Shown in pieces: positions 10,166-42,024 of a stretch of DNA of 45,109 nt. How positions within the stretch are numbered: the first letter of the stretch is position 1; every line of letters begins with the position of its first letter. The stretch is taken from positions 1 through 45,109 of the forward strand of contig DAHVAM010000002.1 in the NCBI GenBank assembly GCA_027314605.1. Reading direction: 5' to 3'. Source of the DNA: Microcaldota archaeon. GTDB taxonomy: Archaea > Micrarchaeota > Micrarchaeia > Micrarchaeales > CABMGC01. The notes below the pieces were generated by a model. That model saw only the letters and a list, made by a program, of their open reading frames with translations. It ran no database searches and was not told the origin of the DNA. Both the position numbers and the translations under genes were made by a program.

Positions 10166-11536
10166 ATGACAATAGCAAGAGACATTGCCGAGTATGCTTG
10201 CTCCTTGGACTATTCGGACTTAAATGGGGAAAGCATCGGAAACATGAAACGGCTCATCGTGGACACTGTGGGCTGCGGCATCGGCGCATTCGACCAGATG
10301 CCTATACGCATGGCGATGAAGGCGCTTAAAGGCTCCGGCAGGGGAAACTCCACCATACTTGGAACCGGCGAGAAGACAAACAGCTGGACAGCCGCCTTCA
10401 TAAACGGCGCCATGACCCGATACTTCGATTACAATGACACCTACGATGCAAAGGAATTTTCACATCCGAGCGACAACATAATGCCTATCCTCGCTGTCGC
10501 AGAGTCTGAAAAGAGAAGCGGCAGGGAGGCGCTTCTGGGCTGCCTGATTGCGTACGAGCTGCAGGCGAGGCTCGCCGACTCGGCAAATCTCTGGAAGAAA
10601 GGCTGGGACCATGTCATATACGGGCTTGTCTCAGTGAGCGCCGCCTCTTCGCGCATGATGGGGCTGTCTGCAGACACGACGGAGCAGGCTATCAACATAG
10701 CCTTGAATTCCCATCTGGTAATGAGGCAGCTGCGCGCTGGAGAATTGTCCATGTGGAAGGCCTTTGCGTTCTCCAACGCCGCGAGAAATGCGATCTTTTC
10801 AGCTGTGCTCGCGAAAGAAGGAATGACAGGCCCCTCTCCTGTATTTGAGGGCGAGATGGGCTTCTTCAATCAGGTCAGCGGCAGATTCACTCTCAACGCA
10901 AGCGACTTCGGAGGAGGCAAGAAGGCCTTCAGGATAAACAAAAACCTCATGAAGTACTATCCTGCGGAGACCAGGGCCCAGGCAGCCATCTTCGCAGCTC
11001 TGGAGCTCAGGAGCAGGATCGGGCCAATCGACGGGATATCGAAGGTAGAGATAGGCGCGGGGGAGGCGACAGTCAAGGTCATAGGAAGCGGAAAGGAGAA
11101 GTGGAATCCCCAGACGAAGGAAACGGCTGACCACAGCATACCCTACATAGTAGCGGCAGCGCTTATGGATGGCAAAGTCGACATCAATACATTCAAAAAG
11201 AGAAGGTTCACCGACAGGAAAACCATCTCGTTCATGAAGAAAATATCGGTCAAGGAGGTTCAAAGATACACCGCCCTTTTCAACAGCGGAGGCACTGTGA
11301 ATGCGGCAGTCGTAAGCATCCTGCTGAAGAACGGCGAGAAATTAAGCAAGGAAGTCATATATCCGAAGGGCCATTGGAAGAACCCTATGGCCGACGAGGA
11401 GATAGAGGACAAGTTCAGGAGGTTGGCCATTGGCAAATTGGGAAATACCGGGGCAGATGCGGCCCTGAAGGCTCTCTGGAACTTTGAAGAAATTACGAGC
11501 ATAGATGGCTTATTTAAGAAACTGCGTTTAAAGTGA
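10166..11536 (+). CDS. MmgE/PrpD family protein (2-methylcitrate dehydratase-like)
   Basis: RYFDYNDTYDAKEFSHPSDNIMPILAVAE and N-terminal DIAEYACSLDYSDL...RLIVDTVGCGIGA typical of the MmgE/PrpD fold. Confidence 0.88.
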   Translation: MTIARDIAEYACSLDYSDLNGESIGNMKRLIVDTVGCGIGAFDQMPIRMAMKALKGSGRGNSTILGTGEKTNSWTAAFINGAMTRYFDYNDTYDAKEFSHPSDNIMPILAVAESEKRSGREALLGCLIAYELQARLADSANLWKKGWDHVIYGLVSVSAASSRMMGLSADTTEQAINIALNSHLVMRQLRAGELSMWKAFAFSNAARNAIFSAVLAKEGMTGPSPVFEGEMGFFNQVSGRFTLNASDFGGGKKAFRINKNLMKYYPAETRAQAAIFAALELRSRIGPIDGISKVEIGAGEATVKVIGSGKEKWNPQTKETADHSIPYIVAAALMDGKVDINTFKKRRFTDRKTISFMKKISVKEVQRYTALFNSGGTVNAAVVSILLKNGEKLSKEVIYPKGHWKNPMADEEIEDKFRRLAIGKLGNTGADAALKALWNFEEITSIDGLFKKLRLK

Positions 11537-22546: not shown

Positions 22547-23413
22547 CTGAAAACGCCGAAGCTGCAAAGCGCAATGGAGTACCTGATGACCTACGGCTGG
22601 GCCATACTCATCATCGCTGTCGTTCTGGGAGCCCTTTTCGGACTCGGTTTCTTCAACTCCGCAAATCTTGCGCCAAAAGTTTCCGCAGGGTCTTGCCAAG
22701 TCTACAGGCCAGAAGGCCCGGGTACTACTTCATTCGTCAATTTGGAAGGGACATGCAACAACGAACTGCCGCAGTACGTGGCAAGCTATTCCTCGTCAAG
22801 TTATATAATTACTGGAACTTCGGGATTGCAATATGGCAGCCCAACAATCTCGGAGTTTGCATGGATTTACTATCCCACAGCCGCTACCAACTACCAAAAT
22901 ATATACATATACGCCAGCAATAGCGGTTATAACGGAATTGCACTTGCCGAAGAGCCATCCCCATCGCATCTCTGTGCAAATACGGGCCAGTATGCGTCTC
23001 CGTGCCCCTCAACTACGCTTACATTGAGCGCCGGCGTATGGAATTTTGTAGGATTGGTATACGCCGGTGGTAGCACTTTCACTGTATATCTGAATGGTCA
23101 GGGATCAACGGAGATAAACAGCGGTGTTGTTAACTCGCCTGCAAGTTCTAAGATAGGCGGATCTTTTGGAGGGTGGGCCCCTTTTGTTGGTTTGATTGCA
23201 AACATCCAAGTTTACAATACTTCACTAACGGCAAACGAAATAACAGCCCTTTACGATGAAGGGATAGGGGGCGCGCCGATACTTCCTCAATATCTTGTGG
23301 GGTGGTGGCCGCTGAACGGCAACGCGAACGACTACAGCGGCAATAACAACAATGGCGTTCCGTATAACATAATATACGTGAGTGCATGGACATCGGGGTA
23401 CACGGCTCCGTGA
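22547..23413 (+). CDS. Class III signal peptide / pilin-like protein with LamG domain (copy A), predicted CTG start
   Basis: KLQSAMEYLMTYGWAILIIAVVLGALFGLGFF; LamG-like body; first ATG (22574) lies inside the conserved signal motif. Confidence 0.8.
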   Translation: MKTPKLQSAMEYLMTYGWAILIIAVVLGALFGLGFFNSANLAPKVSAGSCQVYRPEGPGTTSFVNLEGTCNNELPQYVASYSSSSYIITGTSGLQYGSPTISEFAWIYYPTAATNYQNIYIYASNSGYNGIALAEEPSPSHLCANTGQYASPCPSTTLTLSAGVWNFVGLVYAGGSTFTVYLNGQGSTEINSGVVNSPASSKIGGSFGGWAPFVGLIANIQVYNTSLTANEITALYDEGIGGAPILPQYLVGWWPLNGNANDYSGNNNNGVPYNIIYVSAWTSGYTAP

Positions 23414-26986: not shown

Positions 26987-28006
26987 TTAGTAGAGCGTGG
27001 AGAGGCTTTCCATCCTGAGCGCCGGCGCATGTTCGTGCTCCTCTTCCTTTTTCGAGCCGAACTTGGCCTTGACTCCTGTTACGACTGACATGACTCTCAC
27101 CGAATCGCCCAGCTCTGGAAGCATCCTTGCGCCGAAGATGACGTTCGCGTCAGGCGCGAGGTCTGTTGTTACGCCCTCTCCGAGCTTTGTTGCGTCGCTT
27201 ATAGTGAGGTTTGTTCCTCCGGCGACGTGAATGAGCGCTCCCTTCGCGCCTCCATAGTCGACCGAGAGCAATGGGTGCGTCCTCGTTGACTTGATGGCCT
27301 GCTCGATCCTGTTGGCCCCGCTTCCGGAACCTATGCTTATGACAGCTGTCCCTGTATTCCTGACCACGTTCCTCAAATCTGCGAAATCGAGGTTTATCAG
27401 GCTTGGGAGCGTTATCGTGTCTGCAATTCCCTTCACTGCGTTGCCAGTCACGTTGTCAACCAGCTCGAATGCCTTCTCTATGGGGAGGTTTGGCACATAC
27501 GAGAGGAGCTTGTCGTTCTCTATGACTATCGTGCAGTCGGCCTGCTTGCCAAGCTGCTCGAGTCCCCACTCGGCCTTCTGCTTCCTGCTTCTTTCAAGGG
27601 CAAAAGGGAATGTGACTGTAGCGATGACAGTCGCTCCTCGTTCGCGCGCTGCCTTTGCGATTATCGGTGCTGAGCCTGTCCCTGTTCCTCCTCCCATGCC
27701 TGCGCAGACGAATACTAGATCGAAGCCTTCAAGCGCAGCATCTATCTCGTTCCTGCTTACCTCTGCGGCCTTTGCAGCCACTTCGGGATAGCCTCCAGCG
27801 CCGAGACCCTGCGTTATGTCCTTTCCGAGCAGGATCTTCTTGTGCGCCTTAATCATGTTGAGGTGGCCGACATCGGTATTCATGGCGATTGTTGTCGCGC
27901 TTTTTATGCCGTTCAGGAACAACCTGTTTACCAGGTTGCTTCCCTGTCCACCGGCCCCTACTACTGCTACCTTAGGCGTATAGAGATCGTAGTCGATTTC
28001 GGTCAT
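26987..28006 (-). CDS. ftsZ: FtsZ (copy 2 of tandem pair)
   Basis: VAVVGAGGQGSNLVNRL, FVCAGMGGGTGTGSAP, T7-loop-like NLDFADLRNV. Confidence 0.95.
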   Translation of the reverse strand: MTEIDYDLYTPKVAVVGAGGQGSNLVNRLFLNGIKSATTIAMNTDVGHLNMIKAHKKILLGKDITQGLGAGGYPEVAAKAAEVSRNEIDAALEGFDLVFVCAGMGGGTGTGSAPIIAKAARERGATVIATVTFPFALERSRKQKAEWGLEQLGKQADCTIVIENDKLLSYVPNLPIEKAFELVDNVTGNAVKGIADTITLPSLINLDFADLRNVVRNTGTAVISIGSGSGANRIEQAIKSTRTHPLLSVDYGGAKGALIHVAGGTNLTISDATKLGEGVTTDLAPDANVIFGARMLPELGDSVRVMSVVTGVKAKFGSKKEEEHEHAPALRMESLSTLY

Positions 28007-28007
28007 T

Positions 28008-29063
28008 TTAGATCATCTCTAAGCCAAACGACTGAGTCGATTTCTCCTTGTCAGCAAACTTACCGAGTATGCTCGAGCCGCTTACTCCGGTTACGATGGC
28101 AACTATCTCAAGTTGGCCCTCGTATCCTGGTATGACTCTTGCGCCCCACTTTACGTTTGCCTTGGGGTCCATCTTCTCTGTGATTATCTCTCCTGCCTTT
28201 ATCGCGTCTCCGAGCGTCAAGTCAGCGGCTCCGGATATGTGGATGAGCGCTCCCTTGGCATTCTCGAAGTCGACGTCAAGAAGCTTGTTCTTGACAACTG
28301 ACTCTGATGCTGACTGCACCTTGTCGTTGCCCTTTCCGGTTCCTACGGATATGAATCCTACGTCACCGCTTCCCATGATTGATCTGACGTCAGCGAAGTC
28401 TATGTTGATAAGGCTTGGCTGCGTGATCGTCCATACAAGTCCGCCGATTGCCTTTGCAAGTATGTCGTCTGCAACGGCGAATGCATCATTCATCGGAAGG
28501 TTTGGCACGAGCTTTACGAGCCTGTTGTTGTCCAATATGATTACGCTGTCCGCGAACTTCCTAAGCTTCTGGATTCCCTCCTCGGCCTTTACCTTTCTGA
28601 CTCTTTCGAGGTCGAATGGGTATGTTACCATCGCTACGACTATTGCGCCCTGCTCCTTTGCAATCTGCGCAATTACAGGGATTGCTCCGGTTCCCGTTCC
28701 TCCTCCCATGCCTGCGCATAGGAAGACGAGCTGCGCTCCAGAGAGAACATCCTCGAGCTGCTGCCTGTCTATCTCTGCGGCCTTTGCTCCTACCTCAGGG
28801 TCTCCTCCAGCTCCCATTCCTCTTGTCATCGTCTTTCCGATGAGTATCTTCTTTATCCGGTCATCAAGGATCTTGAAGTGCTGCGCGTCTGTGTTGACTG
28901 CAACCAATTCAGTGCCCTTTACGCCGACACGTATCAATCTGTTGACTGTGTTATTTCCACCGCCACCACAACCGATTGTCACTATCTTTATCTGCGGAGT
29001 GAAACTCACGCTGCTGTTGTCCACACTGCTTTTACCAAGCAGGTCTGTTCCGAATTCTACCAT
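28008..29063 (-). CDS. ftsZ: FtsZ (copy 1 of tandem pair)
   Basis: IVTIGCGGGGNNTVNRL, FLCAGMGGGTGTGAIP, NIDFADVRSIM; TATA TTTATAAATA upstream. Confidence 0.95.
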   Translation of the reverse strand: MVEFGTDLLGKSSVDNSSVSFTPQIKIVTIGCGGGGNNTVNRLIRVGVKGTELVAVNTDAQHFKILDDRIKKILIGKTMTRGMGAGGDPEVGAKAAEIDRQQLEDVLSGAQLVFLCAGMGGGTGTGAIPVIAQIAKEQGAIVVAMVTYPFDLERVRKVKAEEGIQKLRKFADSVIILDNNRLVKLVPNLPMNDAFAVADDILAKAIGGLVWTITQPSLINIDFADVRSIMGSGDVGFISVGTGKGNDKVQSASESVVKNKLLDVDFENAKGALIHISGAADLTLGDAIKAGEIITEKMDPKANVKWGARVIPGYEGQLEIVAIVTGVSGSSILGKFADKEKSTQSFGLEMI

Positions 29064-30650: not shown

Positions 30651-31517
30651 GTGGACACATTTAAGATACAATCCGCCATGGAGTACCTGATGACGTACGG
30701 CTGGGCAATCCTGATTATCGGGATTGTCGCTTCTGCGCTCCTCTATATCGTCTTCTCCGGAAACTCGGGCAATGTCTTCCAACCCAGGGCCTCGCCAGGC
30801 AGTTGCATTGTCTATGCCTCAAACCAGCAGGGCAACCTTGGCCTTTCCACGACAGTCAAAAACCTCGAGGGCGCATGCAACAACGAGCTGCCCCTGTACG
30901 TTGCGGAATTCAACGGAGCAGGCAGCTACATAAACATAACCGGTTCCCCTGCCTTGACATCGGGAGCAGCCTACACTGTAGTCCTCTGGATACACTCCGC
31001 GTCGCAGACCGGGGTGTTTTACTCGACATGGGACACTAACGCAAACGGCTATCAGCTGTCCTCTCATTCCGGCGACGCCTCATTCGGGAGCGGAAGTTCC
31101 GGAGACGAATATTCAAACACAATCGTTACGGACGGCAAATGGCATCAGGTGGCCGGCGTATTCAACTCCAGCGGCCTTGGCTCCATATACGTTGACGGAG
31201 TGAAGGTCTTAAGCGCAAGCACCTCAAACACAATCTCCTCGCAAAATGTGCAGATAGGCAGGCAGTCCGGCGCAACCCCATATTACTATAACGTCTCAAT
31301 TGCAAACGTCCAGGTCTACAACACCTCCCTGTCTTCAAATGCGATAGCTGCCCTGTACACGGAAGGGATAGGGGGCGCGCCTGTTGCACTTCCTTGGCTT
31401 GCAGGATGGTGGCCGCTGAACGGCAACGCGAATGACTACAGCGGCAATAACAACAATGGCGTTGCATCAGGTGTCGCATACACTACATCATGGTCTTCCG
31501 GATACGCCGCGCCATAG
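30651..31517 (+). CDS. Class III signal peptide / pilin-like protein with LamG domain (copy B), GTG start
   Basis: VDTFKIQSAMEYLMTYGWAILIIGIV; KWHQVAGVFNSSGLGSIYVDG; IANVQVYNTSLSSNAIAALYTEGIGGAP; WWPLNGNANDYSGNNNNG at C-terminus. Confidence 0.87.
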   Translation: MDTFKIQSAMEYLMTYGWAILIIGIVASALLYIVFSGNSGNVFQPRASPGSCIVYASNQQGNLGLSTTVKNLEGACNNELPLYVAEFNGAGSYINITGSPALTSGAAYTVVLWIHSASQTGVFYSTWDTNANGYQLSSHSGDASFGSGSSGDEYSNTIVTDGKWHQVAGVFNSSGLGSIYVDGVKVLSASTSNTISSQNVQIGRQSGATPYYYNVSIANVQVYNTSLSSNAIAALYTEGIGGAPVALPWLAGWWPLNGNANDYSGNNNNGVASGVAYTTSWSSGYAAP

Positions 31518-31574
31518 TCCCAATCAAATAAGTCAATGTTCTTAAATTCTGACTTTTCAGTAATACTGATAGGT

Positions 31575-32450
31575 ATGACTCTCCTGAAAATCCAATCTGC
31601 GATGGAATACCTGATGACGTACGGCTGGGCCATCCTTATAATCGCCGTGGTTCTCAGCGCATTCTTCGGCCTGGGATTCTTCAATCCCAACACTCTGGCT
31701 CCAAAGGTATCCCCGGGCTCATGCAACGTATACAGGCCCAACGGCCCGGGAAGCACCTCGCTGATAAATCTTGTAGGGACATGCAATAATGGGCTGCCCA
31801 AGTATGCTGCGCAGTTCAACGGCGCAAGCAGCATCGTCGCCATACCTAATACCGGCACATTGAACGGAATGTCCGGCACAGGAGTAATCAGCGTCTGGGT
31901 GAGGACAAGCTCTCCTGCTGCTGATCAGGTGGCATTTTCCACTTGGGACAACACGCCCGACGGTTTCGGCGTAAGGATCCAGGCGGGAGACCCTGCGATA
32001 ATTGCAAACGGGGCCACCAGCGTGGCATCAGCCACTGCAATCAACAACGGGAACTGGCATAACCTGATAGGGGTATGGACAGGGTCAAACTCCCTCGCGC
32101 TGCTTTATGTAGACGGCAAGCTTGCAAACACCGGCAGCATGACATTCTCCGCCTCGGGACTTGACAACGTCATAGGCGCCTGGTGCACCGGCGCCAACGG
32201 GACAAGCTGCGCCCAGAATTTCAACGGGATGATCTCAAACCTGCAGGTTTACAACACCTCGTTCTCGTCCAACGACGTCACAACGCTCTACGACGAGGGC
32301 ATAGGCGGAGCGCCCATCGCCTTGCAATGGCTTGTAGGATGGTGGCCTCTGAACGGGGATGCCAATGATTACAGCGGAAACGGGAACAACGGCGCGGCCT
32401 CGAATGTCATATACACGACCGGCTGGGCTAATGGCTACGCCGCGCCTTGA
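31575..32450 (+). CDS. Class III signal peptide / pilin-like protein with LamG domain (copy C)
   Basis: MTLLKIQSAMEYLMTYGWAILIIAVVLSAFFGLGFF; NWHNLIGVWTGSNSLALLYVDGKL; WWPLNGDANDYSGNGNNG at C-terminus. Confidence 0.87.
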   Translation: MTLLKIQSAMEYLMTYGWAILIIAVVLSAFFGLGFFNPNTLAPKVSPGSCNVYRPNGPGSTSLINLVGTCNNGLPKYAAQFNGASSIVAIPNTGTLNGMSGTGVISVWVRTSSPAADQVAFSTWDNTPDGFGVRIQAGDPAIIANGATSVASATAINNGNWHNLIGVWTGSNSLALLYVDGKLANTGSMTFSASGLDNVIGAWCTGANGTSCAQNFNGMISNLQVYNTSFSSNDVTTLYDEGIGGAPIALQWLVGWWPLNGDANDYSGNGNNGAASNVIYTTGWANGYAAP

Positions 32451-37319: not shown

Positions 37320-38831
37320 ATGGCGGACGCTGAGGTCACAAAAAAGAGATATGATTCGTACGGGCTCAATGCACATGGCCTCAATGTAACAGTGAACATC
37401 GAGGACAGCGGAGACTTTGTGCCGCTGTACTCCGTCAATTTCCCGGAGCTTGGCGAAGCTACAAGAACCCTGCTCCTCTCACTCAGGCAGGAATTGCTCG
37501 CAATCGTGCCCATCGATACGAGGAGGGTGGAGGACGAGCAGTACATGAAAGAGCTTATAGAGAAGTACACTGCCGCAGCCAACCTGATGATCGACAGATA
37601 TCTTCCGGGAACATCCGCTGAGCCGATGAGCATACTCATCGCATACCTGATAAACGCCATGCTTGGCCTCGGCGACCTCGAGCCTCTCCTCGCAGACGAC
37701 CATCTCGAGGAGATTGCGGTTAACGATGCCAAGAACCCTGTCTGGGTCTTCCACACCAAGTACCAGTGGTGCAAGACAAACATAACCATGAAAAACGAGA
37801 ACGCCATCTACGACATCGCGGAGCAGATCGGAAGGAGGGTGGGAAGGAGCGTAACTAACCTGGCGCCGCTCATGGACGCTGAGCTGCCCGACGGATCAAG
37901 AGTCAACGCGACTCTCTTCCCGATCTCGCAGAAGGGCAACACTCTGACAATAAGGAAATTCGCTGAAAACCCGTGGACTATGCCTGCCCTGATCGCAAAC
38001 GGCACAGTCTCTGCGGATCTCGCAGCGCTGATATGGCTCTGCATACAGAACGAGATAAGCCTAATAATCTCCGGAGGGACAGCCAGCGGCAAGACCAGCT
38101 TCCTCAACGCGATGAGTATATTCATGCCTGCAAACCACAGGATAATATCCGTGGAGGAAACAAAGGAACTCAGGCTTCCCAGGTTCCTGCACTGGGTGCC
38201 GATGCTTACCAGGCAGTCGAATCCCGAGGGGAAGGGGGAGATAACTCTTTACGACCTTATGATAAACGCGCTGAGGCAGAGGCCTGACATAATGCTTGTC
38301 GGGGAAATCAGGGTAAAGAAGGACGCCGAGACCCTCTTCGAGGCGGTGCACACGGGCCACGCGGTCTACGGCACGGTTCACGCAGACAACGCAGAGGACA
38401 CTATAGTCAGGATGACCAATCCTCCCATCGACATACCCAAGATAATGCTGAACTCGCTCGGAGCCATAGTCACGCTTTTCAGGCACAGAAGGCTCGGGAT
38501 AAGGCGTGTGCTCGAGTTCGGAGAGATGCTTTCAGTTGGAGACATCACTGTCACCGACAGGTGGGACATGAGATCAGACACATTCATACAGCTCAACGCT
38601 CTTTCTAGGCTTGTAGACACGATATCGCTATACGGTGGCTACACCAGAAACGAGATAAAGTCTGACATAGCGGAAAAAGTCAAGATACTGAACTGGATGG
38701 TCAAGAACAAGATTCTCGACGTAGAGGCTTCAGGCGCGGTGGTGGCCAACTACTACAAGGACCAGTCAAAGATAGAGAAGCTTGCCAGCGATGACGTTCC
38801 TTTCAACAAGGACCTTATCTGGGGCTTGTGA
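37320..38831 (+). CDS. Type II/IV secretion system (archaeal pilus/TadA-like) ATPase
   Basis: LIISGGTASGKTSFLNAM Walker A, DIMLVGEIRVKKDAETLFEAVHTGHAVYGTVHADNAEDTIVRM. Confidence 0.95.
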   Translation: MADAEVTKKRYDSYGLNAHGLNVTVNIEDSGDFVPLYSVNFPELGEATRTLLLSLRQELLAIVPIDTRRVEDEQYMKELIEKYTAAANLMIDRYLPGTSAEPMSILIAYLINAMLGLGDLEPLLADDHLEEIAVNDAKNPVWVFHTKYQWCKTNITMKNENAIYDIAEQIGRRVGRSVTNLAPLMDAELPDGSRVNATLFPISQKGNTLTIRKFAENPWTMPALIANGTVSADLAALIWLCIQNEISLIISGGTASGKTSFLNAMSIFMPANHRIISVEETKELRLPRFLHWVPMLTRQSNPEGKGEITLYDLMINALRQRPDIMLVGEIRVKKDAETLFEAVHTGHAVYGTVHADNAEDTIVRMTNPPIDIPKIMLNSLGAIVTLFRHRRLGIRRVLEFGEMLSVGDITVTDRWDMRSDTFIQLNALSRLVDTISLYGGYTRNEIKSDIAEKVKILNWMVKNKILDVEASGAVVANYYKDQSKIEKLASDDVPFNKDLIWGL

Positions 38832-39695: not shown

Positions 39696-41021
39696 ATGGC
39701 GGAAGGCATGGATGGCACTGCTACACCTGGCCCAGCGCCAGCAGCGCCGCAGGTGCAACAGCAGCCGCAGTTCACCAAGAGGAAACAGTTTCTTGGGTTC
39801 AAGATCAGGTCAAAGCCGATAAATCCTCAGGCAGGGCCGAAGCAGGCATCGCCCAAGAAGGAACAAAAATCCTCAGGCCCCAGGCTAAGGAGACCCGAGC
39901 CGTTAGAATGGATAGTCTCTCTGGCGATAGCTGCGGCTGTCGCCGTGGTCACAAGGGACTACGGGTTTTCAGTCATTCAGGGAGCTGTTGCGACTGTTGC
40001 GACATACGTAGTGATCTTCAGTGGCTTTGCGGCATACGAGGCCAGCATGGCGCAAGCACACAGGAAACAGGCGGAGCTGATATCGGTGCTGACTGGAAAG
40101 AAGGCTCCTGCGCAGGCCGCGCCCGCCGCCTCGGCGAAGCCGCCAAAGGCAACCGCAAGGCCAGTAATCAGAGAGGCCGGCGAGAAGAGAGGCCCGCTTG
40201 CGAACTACATCAACTCGATCATAAAGGGGAGAAGAAACCTTGAGAGTGATCTGAGGGGAGTGGATATAAGGAAGAGCCCGTATGAATTCGTAAAGTCGAT
40301 GATGGTCTATGCGCTTGTGATGGCCGTGGCCGTCACGCTGATGATAGTAGTGCTGCTAGAGCACTTTGCCGTCGAGCCGCAACTGCTCATCCTGGCTCCG
40401 GCGATGGGGTTTGCAATCTACATGGCGATGTTCAACAGGTTCCTCATGTTCCCTGCCCAGAAGAATAAGGTAATAGGCAAGAACGTTGAGAGGGACATCC
40501 TCTTCGCCGCAAGGGACGTCGTCATAGGCATGCGATCCGGAATGCCACTATACAATGCAATAACCGCAGTCAGCACAGGCTACGGCGACACGAGCAAGGA
40601 ATTCAGCAGGATAGTGGAGCTTGTGCAGTTGGGCATGCCAATAGAGCAGGCGATGGAAGAGACCAGCGCGAAGAGCGAGTCGAAGACCTTCAAGAGGCTG
40701 ATGCTCCAGGCGAGCGTGAGCATAAAGGCAGGAGTCGACGTTACAGGAGCCCTGCAGGACGTGGTCGACGACGTCGCTCAGGAAAGGATCATAGACCTTA
40801 GGAGATACGGCCAGAAGCTAAACGCCCTCGCCATGTTCTACATGCTCTTCGGAGTCATATTCCCGAGCATGGGGATAGCTGTAGCAACCATAATGTCAAC
40901 CTTCATAAACATCTTCCCTGTGACATATGTGGTCCTTGTGCTCGCGCTGATATTCATAGCATTCGTACAGCTCGTACTGCTCAACATAATGAGGACATCG
41001 AGGCCGGTATTTACATTGTAG
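39696..41021 (+). CDS. TadC/FlaJ-like (T2SSF) pilus membrane platform protein 1
   Basis: ARDVVIGMRSGMPLYNAITAVSTGYGDTSKEFSRIVELVQLGMPIEQAMEE; flanking TMs. Confidence 0.88.
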   Translation: MAEGMDGTATPGPAPAAPQVQQQPQFTKRKQFLGFKIRSKPINPQAGPKQASPKKEQKSSGPRLRRPEPLEWIVSLAIAAAVAVVTRDYGFSVIQGAVATVATYVVIFSGFAAYEASMAQAHRKQAELISVLTGKKAPAQAAPAASAKPPKATARPVIREAGEKRGPLANYINSIIKGRRNLESDLRGVDIRKSPYEFVKSMMVYALVMAVAVTLMIVVLLEHFAVEPQLLILAPAMGFAIYMAMFNRFLMFPAQKNKVIGKNVERDILFAARDVVIGMRSGMPLYNAITAVSTGYGDTSKEFSRIVELVQLGMPIEQAMEETSAKSESKTFKRLMLQASVSIKAGVDVTGALQDVVDDVAQERIIDLRRYGQKLNALAMFYMLFGVIFPSMGIAVATIMSTFINIFPVTYVVLVLALIFIAFVQLVLLNIMRTSRPVFTL

Positions 41022-41028
41022 TGATTAG

Positions 41029-42024
41029 ATGGCGATGAATTTCGAGAGGCTTGTATCAAGGGGCGTTGCAAAGTTCCTGTCAGATGAGTTGGATCTCTCT
41101 GGGCTTAAGATGAGTGTCAACGGGCTGATCGAGATAGGCATCTTCGCCGGATTCGCGCTCTTCGTACTTGTGACGGCGCTAGTCTTCCTTTATCTAAAGC
41201 TTAACATCGTGTTCGCGGCCCTCGGAGGCGTCGCCGCCGCTGTGGTCCTGCTGGTGGCTCTCTATGCGTTCCTCGAATTCAACATCGACAAGAGAAAGAC
41301 CTTCGTCGAGGCCATACTGCCTGATTACATACAGCTGACTGCTGCGAACATGAGGAGCGGGATATCGCTCGACAAGGCCATGATGGCCGCAGCGCGTCCC
41401 GAGTTCAAGTACTTCACCGATGACATAATGCTCATGGACAAGCAGATATACGCAGGCGAGACGATGCAGAACGCGCTTGTCAGGCTGGGGCAGAAGTACA
41501 GGTCAAGGCAACTGCAGCACATGATGCGCATGGTAAACGAGTCCATCAGATACGGGGGGAGCATGAACGACCTGCTGAAGCAGATCGCAAAGGACCTGAG
41601 GAACCAGGCGATGATCCAGAAGGAGATATCCGGGCAATTGTTCCTCTATACCATATTCATAACCTTCGCGGTGCTGATAGGCGCACCGTCTCTCTACGCC
41701 CTGACTAATAAGATGATAAATGTAACTGATGCTGTCTGGGCAGGCATCCTCAGGACCAACCCGTCCGGCCTTCCTTCAACCGGAGTGGCATTCATCAGGC
41801 CCAGCCCTCCGAAGATTACCTCCTCGGAGTATTACAACTTCTCGATCATAGCCGTGCTGATGATAACCTCGCTAGGCGCTCTAATAGTCTCAGCGATCTC
41901 GAACGGCTCGGTGCTCAAGGGCATAAAGTATCTGCCCCTGTTCATAATCGTCGGACTCGCTGTCTTCTTCATAGTCTCGATAGTGATATCCAGCGTCTTC
42001 TCCTCAGTGGGAACGGGGCTGTAA
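41029..42024 (+). CDS. TadC/FlaJ-like (T2SSF) pilus membrane platform protein 2
   Basis: LPDYIQLTAANMRSGISLDKAMMAAARPEF...MRMVNESIRYGGSMNDLLKQIA; TMs at both ends. Confidence 0.9.
   Translation: MAMNFERLVSRGVAKFLSDELDLSGLKMSVNGLIEIGIFAGFALFVLVTALVFLYLKLNIVFAALGGVAAAVVLLVALYAFLEFNIDKRKTFVEAILPDYIQLTAANMRSGISLDKAMMAAARPEFKYFTDDIMLMDKQIYAGETMQNALVRLGQKYRSRQLQHMMRMVNESIRYGGSMNDLLKQIAKDLRNQAMIQKEISGQLFLYTIFITFAVLIGAPSLYALTNKMINVTDAVWAGILRTNPSGLPSTGVAFIRPSPPKITSSEYYNFSIIAVLMITSLGALIVSAISNGSVLKGIKYLPLFIIVGLAVFFIVSIVISSVFSSVGTGL

Follow-up and report, generated by a model that had tools for sequence, protein, structure and literature searches.

The LamG proteins encoded in a 45,109-nucleotide stretch of DNA from a Microcaldota archaeon (the window) are very probably archaeal type IV pilins with a circularly permuted LamG jelly-roll head, a reading to which we assign a probability of about 0.87. 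In virtually all LamG pilins of the order, the segment with which a canonical LamG domain begins lies at the C-terminal end of the chain, behind a complete LamG core. Circular permutation was one of two arrangements proposed by the first-pass annotation of this DNA. It is supported by profile homology, by pilins of canonical order from elsewhere in the class and by confident folding of the terminal strand in cis in structural models. The source genome comprises 758 kb, is 85% complete, and has named relatives in Ca. Micrarchaeota. The features of the window that bear on this reading are listed below.

22547..23413, + strand: the third LamG pilin, whose start codon is uncertain
23294..23410, + strand: C-terminal strand segment of the third pilin
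30651..31517, + strand: LamG pilin 1 of the adjacent pair, 288 aa, GTG start
30912..31349, + strand: Laminin_G_3 core of pilin 1, model positions 1-151
31398..31514, + strand: C-terminal segment LAGWWPLNGNANDYSGN...SGYAAP of pilin 1, by profile homologous to the first strand of canonical LamG
31575..32450, + strand: LamG pilin 2 of the pair, open reading frame from 31536
31821..32279, + strand: Laminin_G_3 core of pilin 2, model positions 2-150
32331..32447, + strand: C-terminal strand segment of pilin 2
37320..38831, + strand: T2SSE-family pilus assembly ATPase
39696..41021, + strand: T2SSF-family pilus platform protein
41029..42024, + strand: second T2SSF-family platform protein

The adjacent pair and the third gene at 22547-23413 had each been described as a helix, a LamG core and a terminal segment, and all three are present in that form. 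In pilin 1, a class III signal helix is followed by a linker with two well-conserved Cys residues, the LamG core and the C-terminal strand segment. Pilin 2 more likely starts at the in-frame ATG at 31575 than at 31536. In the third pilin, an in-frame CTG or ATT are candidate starts, and the first ATG falls within the helix. The N-terminus of all three reads K-x-QSAMEYLMTYGWAILII, a short and basic class III-type leader with Gln at +1 and Glu at +5 (K-x-Q-S-A-M-E-Y-L...) that leads into a hydrophobic helix of ~25-29 residues. A Pfam search at E up to 1 returned no pilin or class III signal family in the window pilins. Most pilins of this genome have Leu or Ile just ahead of the predicted cleavage site (window 30651-30761 and 31575-31673). 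This is unusual, as archaeal prepilin peptidases are expected to want a small residue at this position. A scan for sigma-70 promoters and terminators, a type of scan ill-suited to archaea, gave nothing useful.

Alignment to Pfam, which had been suggested as a check of strand order, places a near full-length Laminin_G_3 domain ahead of the C-terminal segment in each protein. The match spans aa 88-233 in pilin 1, 96-248 in pilin 2 and 84-232 in the third pilin, covering positions 1-151, 2-150 and 4-150, respectively, of the 151-position model. Scores of the window proteins against PF13385 (Laminin_G_3) range from 53.8 to 63.4 bits, above the cut-off of 27.6. Past the end of the match, the sequence L(V/A)GWWPLNGxANDYSGN begins at aa 250, 266 and 250 (pilin 1, pilin 2 and third pilin). 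It opens the C-terminal segment common to all three, LVGWWPLNGNANDYSGN, which runs to a near-fixed ending, ...W..GY.AP. The pilins thus resemble PF13385 LamG domains in matching the whole model, from the first core strand to the V(Q/R)xYNxxLS strand, and in possessing the W-x-x-L...DxSGNxNxG segment. They differ in carrying that segment behind the core rather than ahead of it.

Profile comparisons indicate homology between this C-terminal segment and the strand, or segment, with which canonical LamG starts. The sequences flanking 34 LamG cores of other families in the class were scored with an HMM of the segment. Several of these cores come from one protein, so that neither this test nor the rotated-profile comparison below is made up entirely of independent cases: the HMM scored a mean of 6.0 bits upstream of the 34 canonical cores (22 above 3 bits), 0.25 bits downstream of them (1 of 22 above 3) and -0.9 bits on shuffled sequence (10 of 170 above 3). 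A pilin profile rotated by moving the C-terminal segment to the front was then compared with the native profile on canonical domains. The rotated version was better by more than 2 bits on 17 domains and the native one on 2 (Wilcoxon p 3e-4). In many canonical domains the rotated alignment crosses the joint, while the native alignment ends at the end of the core.

LamG pilins of canonical order are also found in the class. About 12 of them, from its other families, are arranged as helix-strand-core, and their chains end soon after the core. One example carries ...LLQGLVAYWKFDDGSGISATDSRG... before the core, then the core, then ...VRLLYENPGYPQ. Members such as L287-L290 and L293 share with the window pilins a class III-type helix and one LamG head in a chain of ~280 aa; unlike them, they place the strand between helix and core and stop directly after the core (LLYENPGYP). 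L286, L287-L290, L293-L296 and L298 appear to be separate helix-LamG fusions. The two sets of pilins offer a clear natural case of circular permutation, with heads in both strand orders within one archaeal class.

Within the order, the permuted arrangement is close to universal. The window genome holds about 20-25 pilin copies (25 matches with the pilin alignment). Matches number 9-60 in every one of 40 related genomes examined, drawn from two families of this order; the match counts take in some non-pilin LamG proteins and fragments. At ~60 matches of ~0.9 kb in 0.8 Mb, the richest genome would devote near 7% of its DNA to such sequences. The helix-core-strand order is seen in 202 of 203 complete LamG pilins of the order, the remaining one having an additional strand match at its end. 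A strand equivalent near the N-terminus had been named beforehand as evidence against permutation; none of the 203 has the strand upstream of the core. Such recurrence, 20-25 copies in one genome and 202 of 203 pilins with the same architecture, argues that the permuted arrangement is not due to chance. When the full pilin profile was searched against 50 genomes of the other families of the class, none of the listed matches spanned it from helix to C-terminal segment. A tandem cluster of more than 10 LamG pilin genes lies in one single-contig genome (G030:C1:581301-604463; L241, L242). Some of its members have identical scores and even spacing and are thus probably near-identical copies.

Where the terminal strand folds was addressed with AlphaFold2 monomer models of both pilins of the pair, built with a 76-sequence alignment. 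The pLDDT values were 85.0 for pilin 1 and 82.7 for pilin 2, and residues 241-288 of pilin 1 were modeled at block pLDDT of 86-95. LVGWW/LAGWW forms a strand in both models and is followed by two short strands. Since a DSSP strand requires a partner, here in the same chain, the C-terminal segment is placed in cis in both. The models strongly indicate that the strand folds back onto its own head, where it would supply the edge strand that canonical LamG takes from the N-terminus. Homology and the length of the Foldseek alignments are the grounds for assigning it to the position of the canonical first strand.

The second arrangement put forward by the first-pass annotation was donor-strand exchange, in which the C-terminal strand of each pilin would detach from its own head and be used to complete the LamG head of the adjacent subunit in the filament. 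Donor-strand fibers are known among other archaeal filaments. The terminal position of the segment, its high conservation and its strand speak for such a mechanism, and domain swapping in a filament is compatible with a cis monomer model. Against it, both monomer models keep the strand within its own chain, and the better of the two does so with high confidence. The core-strand order also occurs in non-pilin surface proteins, some of which, such as L017 and L240, have further sequence behind the strand, so that a filament-specific donor strand is unnecessary to account for it. The same strand order is seen in pentraxins, the closest matches in structure, whose domains are self-contained. Insertion into a neighbor is therefore not borne out, and donor-strand exchange is very unlikely.

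The likeness to pentraxins emerged from a Foldseek search with the pilin 1 model, in which they were the best PDB matches (TM up to 0.73 by target length). The best pentraxin alignments have an rmsd of 3.3-3.8 and 210-222 columns over ~205 residues, compared with only ~160-170 columns for most neurexin and laminin LG domains. Foldseek preserves sequence order, so the pilin heads and the pentraxins share their strand order. In the pentraxin fold, the last strand is C-terminal. Pentraxins (PF00354; CRP, SAP, PTX3) are thus the closest solved folds, with a full-length collinear structural alignment and a jelly-roll closed in cis by a C-terminal last strand, as is predicted for the pilins. They differ in that the pilin heads fall below the Pfam cut-off, sit on a type IV pilin helix and carry the DYSGN segment typical of archaeal LamG. 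The Pentaxin profile matches 24 of 76 family members weakly (E up to 0.1), with individual matches at E 0.006-0.03, and the two matched window proteins score 14.2 and 16.8 bits, under the curated cut-off of 25 bits.

This likeness raises the question of direction. If the pentraxin order were ancestral and the canonical LamG order derived, no permutation would have taken place in this lineage. The structural matches agree with such a history, and in three proteins the Pentaxin profile continues collinearly into the LVGWW strand. Laminin_G_3 fits far better, however, matching 75 of 76 members at E up to 0.1 as opposed to 24 for Pentaxin. In the rest of the class, LamG domains, those of pilins included, have the canonical order, and chains that hold both orders exist inside the order. 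An ancestral pentraxin order is accordingly considered unlikely.

The chains with both orders are found among the larger non-pilin surface proteins of the order, which are arrays of cores (L) and strands (s) in arrangements such as LsLsLs, LsLs, LssL and LssLsL. The number of strands equals that of cores in 12 of 15 such proteins. Some chains (LssL, LssLsL) contain both strand orders, which adds to the value of the family as a case of permutation. In two non-pilin surface proteins, L017 (G000:C1:17000-21500) and L240, repeat-like sequence comes after a permuted LamG domain, and the C-terminus of L017 contains a hydrophobic stretch that probably spans the membrane. Arrays of the LsLs type would be the intermediates expected if a core-strand unit had been excised from a tandem array. 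Under this proposed origin, a unit cut out of a strand-core-strand-core LamG array would couple the pilin helix and linker straight onto the first core strand.

Tandem arrays also invite the view that the C-terminal segment is a structurally idle relic, the beginning of a second LamG domain that was truncated. Its homology to the N-terminal segment of LamG would be explained, and the tandem LamG proteins of the lineage do carry such segments between cores. An idle remnant is difficult to reconcile with the conservation of the segment, which is among the best-conserved parts of the family, with Trp, Leu, Gly, Asp, Tyr and Gly invariant in 76 sequences. Nor would it account for the near-fixed C-terminus of the proteins inspected, for the folding of the segment in the models or for the lack of any other copy of the strand in the core. 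As a description of the present-day segment this view is very improbable; taken as origin only, it is compatible with the permuted LamG head.

Two decayed remnants were also noted in the window genome. In L025 (G000:C9 ~10200-10400), the helix start and the C-terminal segment are nearly joined and the core is missing; L026 (G000:C55 ~1350-1550) is the frameshifted C-terminal part of a pilin. They suggest birth and death of pilin genes. A silent-cassette system was considered and rejected, as both fragments look decayed and not like cassettes.

The permuted pilins combine constant ends with a variable core. Across 177 pilins, identity in the N-terminal part is 91% within and 69% between genomes, and in the C-terminal part 78% and 65%; in the core it is 34% and 32%. 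The first 40 alignment columns of 13 paralogues from the window genome show 100% protein identity and wide differences at synonymous sites, which implies that selection at the protein level, and not recent copying, mainly preserves the ends. Recent whole-gene conversion is rejected for the core, and the synonymous sites of the ends are far from identical. Those sites are nonetheless shared beyond chance, with codon identity in the N-terminal part of 0.36-0.64 against ~0.26 expected, a test that does not separate conversion from codon constraint or age and whose core figure is weakened by uncertain alignment. Homogenization of the constant ends is thus partial at most.

Estimates of dN/dS, made by the simple NG86 method on few close pairs, are ~0.7-1.2 in the core and ~0.1 or below in the N-terminal part for recent paralogues of a same-genus genome, and roughly 0.04-0.26 in the core for orthologue-like pairs between two same-genus genomes. 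The pattern fits gene duplication followed by divergence of the heads, although it is suggestive only. A constant N-terminal part with a hypervariable head is also seen in Neisseria-type variable pilins. The pilins described here differ in forming many full-length paralogues and in keeping the C-terminal end constant too, and cassette transfer would be hypothetical for them.

In the assembled pilus, the leader would be removed by the prepilin peptidase, and the pilin helices would pack as the filament core with the heads pointing outwards. With helix and linker joined to its first core strand, the jelly-roll would be closed by the C-terminal strand. The two T2SSF genes of the window are the only T2SSF matches in the genome, and a single prepilin peptidase (Peptidase_A24) lies on another contig (G000:C58); the assembly is incomplete, so a second pilus system may be missing from it. 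One peptidase, with the ATPase and platform encoded in the window, would assemble many paralogues. Common ends would keep them all fitting one machine while the heads vary.

These observations suggest that one pilus machine serves a repertoire of variable, lectin-like heads whose binding is deduced from their fold alone. The heads would recognize the surfaces of partner cells, a role consistent with the fold, the variability of the heads and the host-dependent life of a related organism as given in passages of PMC5498576. A fuller proposal can be offered tentatively, at rather below even odds. It envisages a mosaic recognition pilus in which dozens of paralogues with constant ends and hypervariable permuted LamG heads, built by one assembly machine, provide a repertoire for binding partner cells. 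The heads would have been diversified by duplication and by relaxed or diversifying selection in genome-reduced, probably host-dependent archaea.

Part of this picture was already known. According to passages of PMC5498576, the ARMAN-2-related archaeon Mia14 has expanded LamG jelly-roll genes, some linked to type IV pilus loci, and a role of the encoded proteins in host contact was proposed. The window genome resembles it as that of a micrarchaeon with many LamG genes, part of them near such loci. The LamG fold is likewise known, and the strand order matches that of pentraxins. The word 'pilin' is absent from PMC5498576 on text search, and passages from it say nothing of strand order or of a pattern of constant ends and variable core. 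Makarova 2016, which deals with archaeal pili, makes no mention of LamG. A literature search on LamG with class III signal peptides, pilins and circular permutation found no description of the architecture; the pilin identity of the family, the permuted order and the constant-end, variable-core pattern were not found in the literature searched. Nor was this large set of candidate adhesins, which makes the attachment of micrarchaea to their hosts testable. Between the third pilin and the adjacent pair, the minus strand of the window also carries two FtsZ-family genes side by side (26990-29063).
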